From Spirochaetia bacterium (lineage in GTDB: Bacteria > Spirochaetota > Spirochaetia > Sphaerochaetales > Sphaerochaetaceae): DNA of 64,000 bases. Shown one piece after another: positions 8,279 to 12,399 of this stretch. Position 1 is the stretch's first letter; each line of letters opens with the position of its first letter. The position numbers were made by a program, and so were the translations under genes. The DNA lies in contig JAKVOU010000001.1 of assembly GCA_022482625.1 (NCBI GenBank), positions 2,466,784 through 2,530,783 on the forward strand, read 5' to 3'. Below the pieces are notes generated by a model. It did not search any database, had not been told where the DNA came from, and worked only from the letters and a program-made list of their open reading frames with translations.

Positions 8279-9361
8279 TCATACAAGTGATTCGACTTTT
8301 GCAATTGCTGTTCTGACTAGCTTATCGTCGACGGGAAAAGGAAGCAAGTGGATTGATTCATGAGGGACGAGTGTCGCTTCAATGACTGCATCTATTTTCT
8401 TTGTATCGGTAGCGTCAACGCCTAGATCAGCAAATTTTGTGGGCAGGCCCATGACTTTGAATTTGTCATAAAGCTTTTTCAGTTCTGCATCATCTCCAAG
8501 CAATGCAGCTTGGACAAGGGTGCCATAGGCTACCTTGAGACCATGCAGCCTGTCATGTGTCTCCTGAAGTACTGACATGCCGTTGTGCAAGGCATGGGCA
8601 GCAGCGACTCGTGTAAAACGTTCTCCAAGTCCACCGACCAGACCACCTCCTGCAATGACTGCATCGACGACTTTGATGAATGTAGGTGTCAATTCTTTTG
8701 CTTTCATGGCAGCAAAAGCCTGTGGACCTTCATCCAGCAGTACTTCGCCGATCATCTTGGCTGTACGAAGTCCCAGTTCCACTGTCAACGGCAGGTTTTC
8801 CAATCCCTTGGTGAGGATATCAGCTTCGTACCATTTTGCAATGGTATCGGCTACCCCAGCTTGCAGATACATCTGTGGGGCATCGAGGATGATCCTGGGT
8901 TCGATGAGCAACAGGAAAGCTGCCTTTGAAAAGATTTCGTATCCCAAAGCCTTGCCTTCCATCGAATACCATACGGAAAGCGGGGTCCAGGCTGCACAGG
9001 TTGCTGCGATGGTCGGGATGGCGACGAATGGTTTGTGCGCTTTTTCTGACAAGGCTTTTGCTGTATCAAGGACTGTACCGCCGCCGATTCCTATGATGGC
9101 TGGAGCAGTTGTGGCTTCTTCTGCGAGGGCATTGACTGCTTCATGGGTACAATGGCCTTTGATTACATGACTGCGTGTCCCTTCTGCTGTATATGCTTCA
9201 GGCAGGTATGGGGCAGCTGCCTTTCCTGCTTTTTCGCCATGCAGCCATAATGAGTTCTTCAATTCTTCTTCCGTAAAGAATGTGTTGAGTTTTTCCAATG
9301 AGCCGGCATAGGAAAAACAGTTGTCCGGTCCCGGTTGGATCCTTATAGATGGATATTCCAT
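8279..9361 (-). CDS. Iron-containing/glycerol dehydrogenase-family oxidoreductase, HcxA (YbdH)-like
   Basis: A 360-residue member of the GldA-like group III dehydrogenases. The dinucleotide-binding IIGIGGGTVLDTAKALSE and the PTIAATCAAWTPLSVWY loop are visible. Metal-ligand positions fall in GVADTIAKWYE and AAHALHNGM/ETHDRLHGLKVAYG. In E. coli the related ybdH (hcxA) lies next to ybdL, a methionine aminotransferase gene. Here the same two families are adjacent and overlap, behind metQNI. HcxA is known to reduce 2-oxo acids; use of the oxo acid of methionine is inference. Confidence 0.78.
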   Translation of the reverse strand: MEYPSIRIQPGPDNCFSYAGSLEKLNTFFTEEELKNSLWLHGEKAGKAAAPYLPEAYTAEGTRSHVIKGHCTHEAVNALAEEATTAPAIIGIGGGTVLDTAKALSEKAHKPFVAIPTIAATCAAWTPLSVWYSMEGKALGYEIFSKAAFLLLIEPRIILDAPQMYLQAGVADTIAKWYEADILTKGLENLPLTVELGLRTAKMIGEVLLDEGPQAFAAMKAKELTPTFIKVVDAVIAGGGLVGGLGERFTRVAAAHALHNGMSVLQETHDRLHGLKVAYGTLVQAALLGDDAELKKLYDKFKVMGLPTKFADLGVDATDTKKIDAVIEATLVPHESIHLLPFPVDDKLVRTAIAKVESLV

Positions 9362-9438: not shown

Positions 9439-10101
9439 TCAGTGTACGAACTTTCCTGCAATCTTGTCGCCGATGATTTGGGCGACCTGGACGATGATGA
9501 CAAGCAGGACAACTGTCACGATCATGACGCCTGTCTCATAACGATAATAGCCGAACTGAATTGCAAGATCTCCTATGCCTCCGCCTCCGACGATACCTGC
9601 CATGGCCGAATAGCCGATGAGGCTGACTAAGGTTACGGTAATTGCCCGTATAATGCCAGGTCTTGCCTCTACAAGCAGGACATGGGAAATGATGAGTTTC
9701 ATGGATGCTCCCGTAGCGACGGATGACTCGATGACTCCTCGGTCTATATCTGCAAAAGCTCCTTCGATGAGTCTTGCATGGAAGGCTATGGCACAGAATG
9801 AAAGGGGAACCGAAGCTGCAAGAGGTCCGATTGTCGTGCCTGCAATGAGTTTTGTCAGAGGAATCAACACGACCAGCAGGATGATGAAGGGAATCGACCG
9901 GATAAGGTTGACTATTGCCCCCGCGATGATGTTGATCGTCCTGTTCTTTGTCAGTAGTGGAGTCTCCGTCATGTAGAGCACAAGACCCAGCAACGTACCG
10001 AATACCAAGGCTGCCAGCAGTGATATGATGACCATCTGGAATGTCTCATATGTGGCTTTCCAAAGATATTGGTGAAGGATTTCCAAGGTTTCTTCAAGCA
10101 T
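9439..10101 (-). CDS. metI: Methionine ABC transporter permease MetI
   Basis: A 220-residue integral membrane protein with about five helices, the usual size for MetI. NLIRSIPFIILLVVLIPLTK and the cytoplasmic ESSVATGASMKLIISHVLL loop, which contacts the ATPase, are typical. The start overlaps the end of metN by 8 bases. It forms the channel for the MetQ-delivered substrate (methionine and some derivatives in known systems). Confidence 0.9.
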   Translation of the reverse strand: MLEETLEILHQYLWKATYETFQMVIISLLAALVFGTLLGLVLYMTETPLLTKNRTINIIAGAIVNLIRSIPFIILLVVLIPLTKLIAGTTIGPLAASVPLSFCAIAFHARLIEGAFADIDRGVIESSVATGASMKLIISHVLLVEARPGIIRAITVTLVSLIGYSAMAGIVGGGGIGDLAIQFGYYRYETGVMIVTVVLLVIIVQVAQIIGDKIAGKFVH

Positions 10102-11170
10102 TGGATTGCTCCTTTGTCAGCAGTTCTACTGACGATGTGTTTTCCTTCAGGTAGATGAGGGCCTGGCTTCTGGCGTCAGGAGCTCCGGTGAGGCAGACTA
10201 CCAGGATACCGAAAGGTTTTCCGTCGATGTATTCGATCTTGCCATGCACGATTGAAAGGGAAATGCTGTAGCGTTGGGCTACGGTTGCAATGACCGGGTC
10301 AAAGGCTTTTTCTCCGACATAGGTCAGCTTGAACAGCTGTCCGTCTGCAGGGATTGCCAGCTCGTCAGGAACTTCGATATCGATGACTCTTGCCACCATT
10401 TTCTGGGTAACTGTCTGTCTGGGAGAAGTAAAAAGCGAGTAGGTGTCATTGACTTCAATGATATGCCCATGGTCCATGACGGCGATCCTGTCAAACAGTT
10501 TCTTTGCTACTTCCATCTGATGGGTGATGAACATGATGGTCAGGCCCATCTTGCGGTTGATCGAGCGCAATATGGAAACGATGCCTTCCGTAGTTTCAGG
10601 ATCCAAGGCACTTGTTGCTTCGTCACAGAGCAACAGTTCCGGGTTGTTTGCAAGGGCCCTTGCAATGGCTACCCGTTGTTTTTGTCCTCCTGAAAGCTGG
10701 GAAGGATATGCATGCAGTTTGTCAGACAACCCGACCAGGTCAAGCAATTCCTTGACTCTGCCTGGGATATCTTCTTTCTTCCAACCTGCTGCCAGCAGGT
10801 TGAAGGAAATGTTCTTTTCTACTGTAGAACCTGAGATCAGATTGAAATGTTGGAAGATCATGCCGATTTTCTGCCTGAGGGCTTCCAGTTGTTTCCCTTG
10901 CAGCCCTGTGATGTCCTGTCCGTCAACCAGTACATGTCCCGCTGTAGGTGCCTGCAGGAGATTGACGACCCTTGCTAGCGTACTCTTACCTGCTCCGCTT
11001 GGACCGACGATGCCGAATATCTCACCTTTCCTGACTGTCAGGTCAACACGGGAAACGGCATGTATCTCAGTACCTTCTGCAGTAGCAAAGGAAACTGAGA
11101 TATCCTTGAGCTCAACCAAGGCTCTGCCTTTTTCGGGTAGAGCCGTTGTCTGCTTTTCCTGCATTGTCAT
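10094..11170 (-). CDS. metN: Methionine ABC transporter ATPase MetN
   Basis: A 358-residue ATPase. The Walker A is GIVGPSGAGKST (about residues 53-64), the signature LSGGQKQR, and the Walker B ELLLCDEATSALD, with an ITHQMEV switch histidine. About 80 C-terminal residues beyond the ATPase core match the NIL/ACT-like domain that binds methionine and inhibits transport in known MetN proteins. The start overlaps the metQ stop as ATGA. It pairs with MetI and MetQ. Confidence 0.93.
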   Translation of the reverse strand: MTMQEKQTTALPEKGRALVELKDISVSFATAEGTEIHAVSRVDLTVRKGEIFGIVGPSGAGKSTLARVVNLLQAPTAGHVLVDGQDITGLQGKQLEALRQKIGMIFQHFNLISGSTVEKNISFNLLAAGWKKEDIPGRVKELLDLVGLSDKLHAYPSQLSGGQKQRVAIARALANNPELLLCDEATSALDPETTEGIVSILRSINRKMGLTIMFITHQMEVAKKLFDRIAVMDHGHIIEVNDTYSLFTSPRQTVTQKMVARVIDIEVPDELAIPADGQLFKLTYVGEKAFDPVIATVAQRYSISLSIVHGKIEYIDGKPFGILVVCLTGAPDARSQALIYLKENTSSVELLTKEQSNA

Positions 11171-12021
11171 TCACCTTCGCCGTAGGTATCGATCCACCAC
11201 TGCGGGCGGTCAAAGGAATTGAACAGGCTGCCTTCCTTTGTAATGGCATCATGGAAATCCTTTGACTGTATTGCTTCCTTGAGTACTTTACCCAATGGGG
11301 AATCTACGTCTGCAGTCCTGACGGCCATGACATTCTTGTAGCCTTCTGCCAGTTTTTCTATGGCCAATGCCTTTGAATAATCCAGACCTGCAGCTATGGC
11401 ATAGTTCCCAGGGACGATGCCGATGGCAACACTGTCCAGGCTGCGGGCAATCTGAGCGCCATCCAGGGTCTTGAACTGCAGATGCTTGGGATTTTCCGCT
11501 ATGTCGATCAAGGAAACCTTTGTGGGGTCAATGTTGTCCTTGAGGGTAATGACATTGTATCTTGCAAGGATGCCTAGGCTGCGGGCAAGGTTGGTGACAT
11601 CACTTGCAATTGCAATCTGGTCCCCGTCCTGAAGTTGGTCAAGTGAGGTGTATTTCTTGCTGAAGACTCCGGCTCCGGCGGTCGGGACGGTGATGATCGG
11701 AGAGATGTCAAGCTTGTTGGCCTTTGCGAATGCTGTGAGGTAAATGGTATGCTGCATCAGGTTGGCTTCGATTTCTCCTTCACTCAGTGCTTGGTCCGGC
11801 TGTACCCAATCGGAGAACTGGACAACGGAAACTTTGTATCCCTGTTTTTCCAAGTAAGGGGCAATTGCCTGCTTGACCATGTCTCCATAAGGGCCAGGAC
11901 TTACGCCGATCCTTATATCCTTGCTTGTCGTTGCTGTCTGTGTTTCACTTTTTCCGCTTGCAAAGGCAAGGGAGCCGATTGCCAGTAAGATGATGCTGAA
12001 TATGGCTGTTCTTTTCTTCAT
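11167..12021 (-). CDS. metQ: Methionine-binding protein MetQ
   Basis: A 284-residue NlpA-family substrate-binding protein. It has a signal peptide ending LAFASGKSE, a spirochaete-type end without a lipobox cysteine. DIRIGVSPGPYGDMVKQAI, NLMQHTIYL and NYAIAAGLDYSKAL are family hallmarks. I chose ATG 12021, which gives a clean signal peptide and has AAGGA upstream, rather than the in-frame start at 12057. It is the first structural gene of metQNI-hcxA-ybdL and lies 126 bases after a methionine-rich leader ORF that probably controls it. Confidence 0.92.
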   Translation of the reverse strand: MKKRTAIFSIILLAIGSLAFASGKSETQTATTSKDIRIGVSPGPYGDMVKQAIAPYLEKQGYKVSVVQFSDWVQPDQALSEGEIEANLMQHTIYLTAFAKANKLDISPIITVPTAGAGVFSKKYTSLDQLQDGDQIAIASDVTNLARSLGILARYNVITLKDNIDPTKVSLIDIAENPKHLQFKTLDGAQIARSLDSVAIGIVPGNYAIAAGLDYSKALAIEKLAEGYKNVMAVRTADVDSPLGKVLKEAIQSKDFHDAITKEGSLFNSFDRPQWWIDTYGEGE

Positions 12022-12083: not shown

Positions 12084-12139
12084 TGGGTCACTGTTGTTAC
12101 GATAAAAATATAGAGATGTGGTGGATATGGGGGGTATAC

Positions 12140-12155
12140 TGCGCTTTTCAGCGCA
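12140..12155 (-). promoter_or_regulatory. Hairpin at the end of the methionine leader ORF
   Basis: TGCGCT GAAA AGCGCA on the minus strand: a 6-bp stem closed by a GAAA tetraloop. The TGA stop codon of the leader ORF lies inside it. A ribosome stalled on the two Met runs would decide whether this hairpin forms. Confidence 0.6.
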
Positions 12156-12225
12156 TCATCATGAAGAAGCACATCATCATGCAAAGAGAAGAAACGGTTG
12201 TGAAGCTTGTGGTAAATGTACTCAT
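12148..12225 (-). CDS. Methionine-rich leader peptide of the metQNI operon
   Basis: A 25-codon ORF on the minus strand, preceded by AAAGGAGAAGGAC. This is a ribosome-binding site as good as any in the window, 8 bases from the ATG at 12225. Residues 16-18 and 22-24 are Met-Met-Met, with Cys at 15 and 19, so ten residues (15-24) hold six Met and two Cys. The stop at 12148 falls within a GAAA-loop hairpin, and metQ begins 126 bases further on. Clusters of the regulated amino acid just before a hairpin are the classic design of attenuation leaders (his, trp, leu, phe operons). A methionine-sensing leader fits the operon behind it. The mechanism, transcriptional or translational, cannot be told: no U-tract terminator is seen. 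Confidence 0.75.
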   Translation of the reverse strand: MSTFTTSFTTVSSLCMMMCFFMMMR

Positions 12226-12276
12226 GTCCTTCTCCTTTGCGGTTTTCCGCTTGATGTGTTGCCGTAACAATTGCAG

Positions 12277-12282
12277 ATTATA
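12277..12282 (-). promoter_or_regulatory. Possible -10 element for the methionine operon
   Basis: A perfect TATAAT on the minus strand, 52 bases upstream of the leader ATG. A TTGACA lies only 7 bases upstream of it and cannot be its -35. The hexamer at the correct distance (TTAAAT, 12300-12305) is weak, so the promoter is plausible but not firm. Confidence 0.4.
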
Positions 12283-12399
12283 CAGAATGTGTCAAGAGGA
12301 TTTAAAAAAATCCAGTGGTTCTTGACGTTCTTTTTTTCTCCTCTGTATGGTCAAGACAGCAGAGGAGGCTATGGTATGCTTTGTGTTGACAGCGATCCG

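Follow-up and report, generated by a model that had tools for sequence, protein, structure and literature searches.

Met-rich leader peptides before methionine genes in one spirochaete family: a probable ribosome-mediated attenuator

How the methionine uptake operon metQNI is controlled in a member of the Sphaerochaetaceae is the question raised by a short open reading frame (ORF) with clustered Met codons lying immediately before metQ. Amino-acid attenuators, in which a leader peptide is translated, are textbook systems for Trp, His, Thr, Leu, Ile/Val and Phe, and the supply of methionine is also needed to start every protein. Methionine genes can also be controlled by a Met-specific T-box, which senses the charging of tRNA-Met. 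In the window analysed here (the whole stretch of 64 kb from a Spirochaetia bacterium), an Rfam search at gathering score returned no riboswitch, T-box or match to any other family, in agreement with a preliminary description of this DNA that had seen neither a SAM riboswitch nor a T-box. Similarly, a SAM-I covariance match is absent from the genome to which the window belongs.

The leader ORF (Table 1) has 25 codons, encodes the peptide MSTFTTSFTTVSSLCMMMCFFMMMR followed by a stop codon, and is preceded by AAAGGAGAAGGAC, a good ribosome site. It lies 126 nt upstream of metQ, whose ATG start codon is at 12021, and metQ is followed by metN and metI. The preliminary description, made from the letters alone, had proposed a 25-codon ORF with a good ribosome site directly before metQNI (without stating the strand), two Met-Met-Met runs, two Cys residues and an end inside a GAAA-loop hairpin. 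All of these were recovered, the ORF being on the minus strand and its UGA stop (12150-12148) falling within the hairpin UGCGCU-GAAA-AGCGCA. Its claim that such an ORF had a small chance of arising here also held up: the window contains 116 mini-ORFs of 12-40 codons that follow a good Shine-Dalgarno sequence (SD), and none apart from the leader, which has six, reaches four internal Met codons; five or more occur in none of 1,990 SD-preceded mini-ORFs from Markov-shuffled windows, an estimate based on the 64 kb window. The Met-rich leader ORF before metQ is not due to chance.

Table 1. Coordinates of the leader element and the downstream genes within the window (position 1 is the first nucleotide of the window)
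Feature	Position	Strand	Basis
Candidate promoter TTTAAA, 18 nt, TATAAT	12277..12306	minus	Consensus scan, 10/12 matches; match alone no evidence of function
P1 5' strand GCAAAGGAGAAG, contains leader Shine-Dalgarno AGGAG (12236-12232)	12229..12240	minus	Sequence; predicted fold; family co-variation
Leader ORF	12148..12225	minus	Translation; conserved family
P1 3' strand CTTCTCTTTGC, inside ORF, adjoining Met run 1	12181..12191	minus	Predicted fold; family co-variation
Met codon run 1 ATGATGATG	12172..12180	minus	Sequence; relatives Met-enriched at codons -7 to -5
Met codon run 2 ATGATGATG	12154..12162	minus	Last codon opens P2 hairpin arm; sequence
P2 hairpin UGCGCU-GAAA-AGCGCA, holds stop codon	12140..12155	minus	Sequence; predicted fold
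G-free C-rich 38-nt tract with CCACCACATC (12124-12115)	12101..12138	minus	Sequence; candidate Rho-loading tract
metQ, methionine-binding lipoprotein, first operon gene	11170..12021	minus	PF03180 225 bits; NCBIfam MetQ best family, below curated cut-off
metN, ATPase with NIL domain	10094..11170	minus	NCBIfam/Pfam
metI, permease	9439..10101	minus	
ybdH-type iron-alcohol-dehydrogenase-fold oxidoreductase, probable fourth gene	8279..9361	minus	NCBIfam PRK10586 468 bits, above cut-off

Upstream regions supplied by a MetQ search of 61 genomes (the window's own and 60 relatives) contain an SD-preceded ORF with Met runs in 13 of 30 cases. A covariance model built from ten leader sequences with the window's sequence excluded (R1) gave its best score in the 64 kb to the window leader (30.6 bits, E 0.0026) and, at E up to 1, identified 85 of 139 family genomes as carriers, with a few false matches among them; a second model of 58 sequences (R2) found the element in 83 of the 139 at E up to 0.05. 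The preliminary description had proposed a check for a conserved short ORF with Met runs in relatives. Instead of being lost there, the SD-preceded ORF and its same-frame Met runs are kept upstream of methionine genes at about 90 loci. The carriers have to be narrowed from spirochaetes to one family, several genera of which are without the element; in these, metQ directly follows metI. No convincing member beyond the family was found by R1 in 393 genomes of the phylum or by R2 in 395 genomes of the class, the weak matches (L169 with R1, L195 and L196 with R2) failing inspection, and a scan of IMG/VR with MetQ gave no match. Weak matches within the family (L149, L151-L154, L192 and L193) were also rejected on inspection.

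Selection in these leaders acts on the Met codons. The 90 loci encode 86 distinct peptides in which Met makes up 26.5% of residues, and, upstream of codon -4, ATG accounts for 21.6% of codons in frame vs 0.5% in the other two frames. The Met codons occupy positions -7, -6, -5 and -2, -1, 0 relative to the hairpin, with Met at the latter three in 83-99% of relatives. The family combines a short SD-preceded ORF upstream of an operon with clustered, conserved codons for methionine, the amino acid handled by the genes that follow. Sensing of cysteine was rejected: Cys is only 3.1% of leader residues and forms no run.

Two helices accompany the ORF. In P1 the leader's own SD is paired with codons just 5' of a Met run, as in GGAGGACAUC with GAUGUCCUCC (L062) or GGAGAG with CUCUCC (L098). 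Each leader's own pair averages -15.4 kcal/mol vs -12.8 kcal/mol for within-genus swaps, and none of 2000 permutations was as strong. The 5' arm of the second helix, P2, begins with the last AUG codon of the leader, and its core, AUGCCC-NNNN-GGGCAU, is near invariant in relatives. Past a two-base bulge, a 4-bp extension co-varies (GAUG with YAUY; GUGC with GUAC in genus g8). In the resulting 10-bp form 90.7% of cells are paired and 16 both-side changes are found vs 4.4 ± 1.8 in shuffled alignments, numbers that serve as a guide and not as a probability because the shuffle control keeps relatedness. The pairing of the SD by its own ORF and the placement of sensor codons in a hairpin arm are two points on which the preliminary description was silent. 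In the window copy a small hairpin, GCGG-AAAA-CCGC, is also present at 12250-12239 on the minus strand, immediately 5' of the leader SD.

The classical layout has the stop codon upstream of the terminator hairpin, whereas here it lies in or just after P2. No antiterminator competing with P2 was established, P1 being real but not competing with the P2 core. A further candidate pairing, P0, joins a CAUC segment at the 5' end with the last GAUG in the consensus fold of genus g12 and partly in that of g17. CATC occurs at only 52 of 92 loci. Competition between this segment and the P2 extension is conceivable; genus g8, in which GAUG is replaced by GUGC and the segment is unchanged, gives this no support.

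The sequence following P2 is of two types. In most relatives a U-tract starts at the end of the extended P2 stem. Positions 6-12 after the extension average about 68% U, with almost no G over 12 positions. The tails have a median U-score of 3.2, compared with 1.4 at random gene positions and 3.8 at the best hairpin downstream of metQ genes, as would suit a pause or a weak intrinsic terminator. In the window copy and in L003 and L004, two of its closest relatives, the tail is instead C-rich, and the window's U-score of 1.4 is not terminator-like. Its G-free run of 38 nt compares with a control median of 11 and a 95% limit of 16. Since this tail is C-rich and G-free, Rho-dependent termination would be the likelier output there, and the genome encodes rho. 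A CCACCACAU-like motif is found 12-25 nt 3' of the hairpin in leaders of quite different sequence and with both tail types. No consistent pairing partner for this motif was found, either for the window copy (12124-12115) or in relatives.

In nearly all loci the gene after the leader is metQ, and the usual order is metN-metI-leader-metQ. The leader is also found before metNIQ (L146), before metA (L148; PF04204, 388 bits) and before metY (L194; TIGR01326, 637 bits, above cut-off). The presence of metA and metY among the targets fits a methionine signal. The methionine attenuation logic put forward in the preliminary description is supported by the conserved Met leaders before metQ, metA and metY; its output step and its response to methionine are proposed.

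Its Met codons and its target genes both indicate a switch operated by translation. The element is very probably a ribosome-mediated attenuator as such, and the following account, in which it is specific for methionine, is likely in full. A short transcript would start close upstream of the leader ORF. When charged Met-tRNA is scarce, the ribosome would slow or stall on the runs of Met codons, where it would exclude P1 and, from the last run, P2 as well. When methionine is plentiful, the ribosome would leave and P1 would shut off further leader translation, limiting the leader to few rounds, while P2 and its tail would stop expression of the downstream methionine genes. Termination is favoured as the output, if somewhat less firmly than the account as a whole: P2 would act as an intrinsic terminator in most relatives, and perhaps termination depends on Rho in the window copy. 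In constrained folds, placing a ribosome on run 2 lowers the probability of P2 from 0.85 to 0, whereas one placed on run 1 leaves it at 0.78. The position of the stop codon in or just after P2 means that a closely coupled, fast ribosome would block P2 too. Many loci carry TTGCA-18-TATAAT-like boxes before the leader, with the -10 box about 30 nt 5' of the start codon. A local sigma-70-like promoter before the leaders was rejected as a general feature, its overall score being barely above that of shuffled sequence.

An early stall on run 1 leaves the P2 core free and by itself predicts termination in starvation, so that slow ribosomes would allow P2 and methionine would induce the genes. This geometry is the argument for the opposite sign, which is nonetheless improbable: metA and metY are biosynthetic genes expected to be induced on starvation, and it is because of these targets that the attenuator is read as ON in starvation. 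Another reading places control at translation of metQ, the last Met run and the codons preceding it (TTCTTCATGAT) pairing, when idle, with the metQ start (ATCATGAAGAA) and a stalled ribosome freeing it. Predicted folds agree with this: the probability that the metQ AUG is unpaired is 0.001 in the window and 0.0006 in L004, and a ribosome occupying run 2 raises it to about 0.35. Both also have an 11-nt match between leader and metQ. The match has p ~0.015 in L004 but p 0.09-0.14 in the window. Moreover, leaders across the family show no preference in pairing for their own downstream ribosome-binding site (RBS) over one from another species (1873 of 2000 within-genus permutations were as good), and RBS accessibility stays almost the same. 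As a general mechanism, pairing with the metQ RBS was accordingly rejected, and the sequestration of a downstream RBS with release by stalling, as in ermC-type systems, is not found family-wide. Translational attenuation is thus unlikely to be the explanation, although sequestration of the metQ start limited to the window and L004 is plausible from the folds.

The remaining readings dispense with the charging of Met-tRNA. The nascent peptide itself might arrest the ribosome on free methionine or SAM, in the manner of TnaC or CGS1, and some leaders do end in MMMP before the stop or carry Met runs near it. However, the non-Met residues vary across the 86 peptides, and the common C-terminal MPxRA is simply what the hairpin AUGCCC-NNNN-GGGCAU, whose loop is often GNNA, encodes; peptide-specific arrest is slightly less probable still than the opposite sign. 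The last AUG belongs to the near-invariant P2 arm, and it could be supposed that the AUG repeats serve pairing only in a structured RNA whose ORF is incidental. Of the alternatives this has the lowest probability: the SD and start codon are kept in frame with the Met codons even though the distance from start to hairpin varies, and in-frame Met codons also occur outside P1 and P2. The methionine-specific attenuator remains the preferred reading.

Compared with the classical attenuators (trp, his, thr, leu, ilv and phe), the element shares a short ORF, preceded by an SD, in which codons for the supplied amino acid form a run, overlapping hairpins and, in most relatives, a terminator-like hairpin. 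It differs in its amino acid, in the last Met codon forming part of a hairpin arm, in its occurrence in spirochaetes, in a stop codon in or just after the hairpin, in a leader SD paired to its own ORF and in having no competing antiterminator found. It works like amino-acid attenuation but is not filed as a classical transcription attenuator, because of the placement of the stop codon and because an antiterminator was not established. In contrast to a Met-specific T-box, of which the window has no match, the sensor here is a translated ORF. The nearest architectures are among actinobacterial leaders, in a 2005 survey that reported no methionine elements (PMC1262725). The ilvB leaders described there similarly have a short ORF with runs of regulatory codons overlapping a candidate terminator hairpin, but use Ile/Val/Leu codons and belong to another phylum (PMC1262725); in S. 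coelicolor ilvBNC, substitution of upstream codons left regulation unchanged (PMC1262725). The actinobacterial cys leaders resemble the window copy in the run of codons close to the stop, the lack of a clear terminator and the pyrimidine-rich tracts from which Rho is suspected, whereas their amino acid is cysteine and they have no conserved hairpin (PMC1262725). According to a 2010 survey, which added Firmicutes, no phyla other than Proteobacteria and Actinobacteria had until then been known to have leader-peptide systems (PMC2965389).

No described methionine leader-peptide attenuator was found in the literature searched, which was mostly without subscription papers and where absence is not proof; the preliminary description had likewise known of none in spirochaetes. 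The present elements may well be the first described attenuator family that reads methionyl-tRNA by leader translation, with AUG codons serving both as sensor and as part of the deciding hairpin, and that controls a small methionine regulon (metQ/metNIQ, metA, metY and ybdH) in one spirochaete family in the place of the SAM riboswitch. Such a family would extend leader-peptide control to spirochaetes, and its approximately 90 natural Met leaders make sensing of elongator Met-tRNA directly testable. The covariance model can be used to annotate methionine genes. In an outgroup (L005), a SAM-I (S box) riboswitch (RF00162, 90.6 bits), which senses SAM by an aptamer and not by translation, occupies the leader's place before metQ, indicating a swap of sensors at the same gene. 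SAM-I is above cut-off in 19 of 139 family genomes, and where the gene after it could be read with confidence (L170, L175 and L177) it was metK-like by inspection.

Several loci show variations on this arrangement. The MetQ of the window resembles enterobacterial MetQ-like proteins (48-52%) more than the family's usual MetQ (30-37%), suggesting horizontal transfer of the metQNI-ybdH operon. The divergent ybdH-type gene of G022, a relative of the fourth gene in the window's operon, is likewise preceded by a Met leader (MNISSFATKYLLSSMCISMLMPGRA followed by a stop; L003 1024-1080, minus strand), which lies back to back with the metQ leader. At L131 and L135 the gene behind the Met leader encodes a binding protein of the oligopeptide type (SBP_bac_5), a hint that peptides containing methionine may be taken up. 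At six loci (L113, L115, L125, L130, L132 and L147) the leader is followed by an oddly arranged MetQ-like protein and then an M20-type amidohydrolase, named by inspection, so that these operons possibly serve the uptake and deacylation of acyl-methionine. The window's own genome also carries a second Met leader, MVFYVDDTLMCTLSLLMMPVWA followed by a stop (L150, G000:C1:2233154-2234147), upstream of a metQ paralogue with a reading frame broken into two pieces, which represents either a pseudogene or an assembly error.
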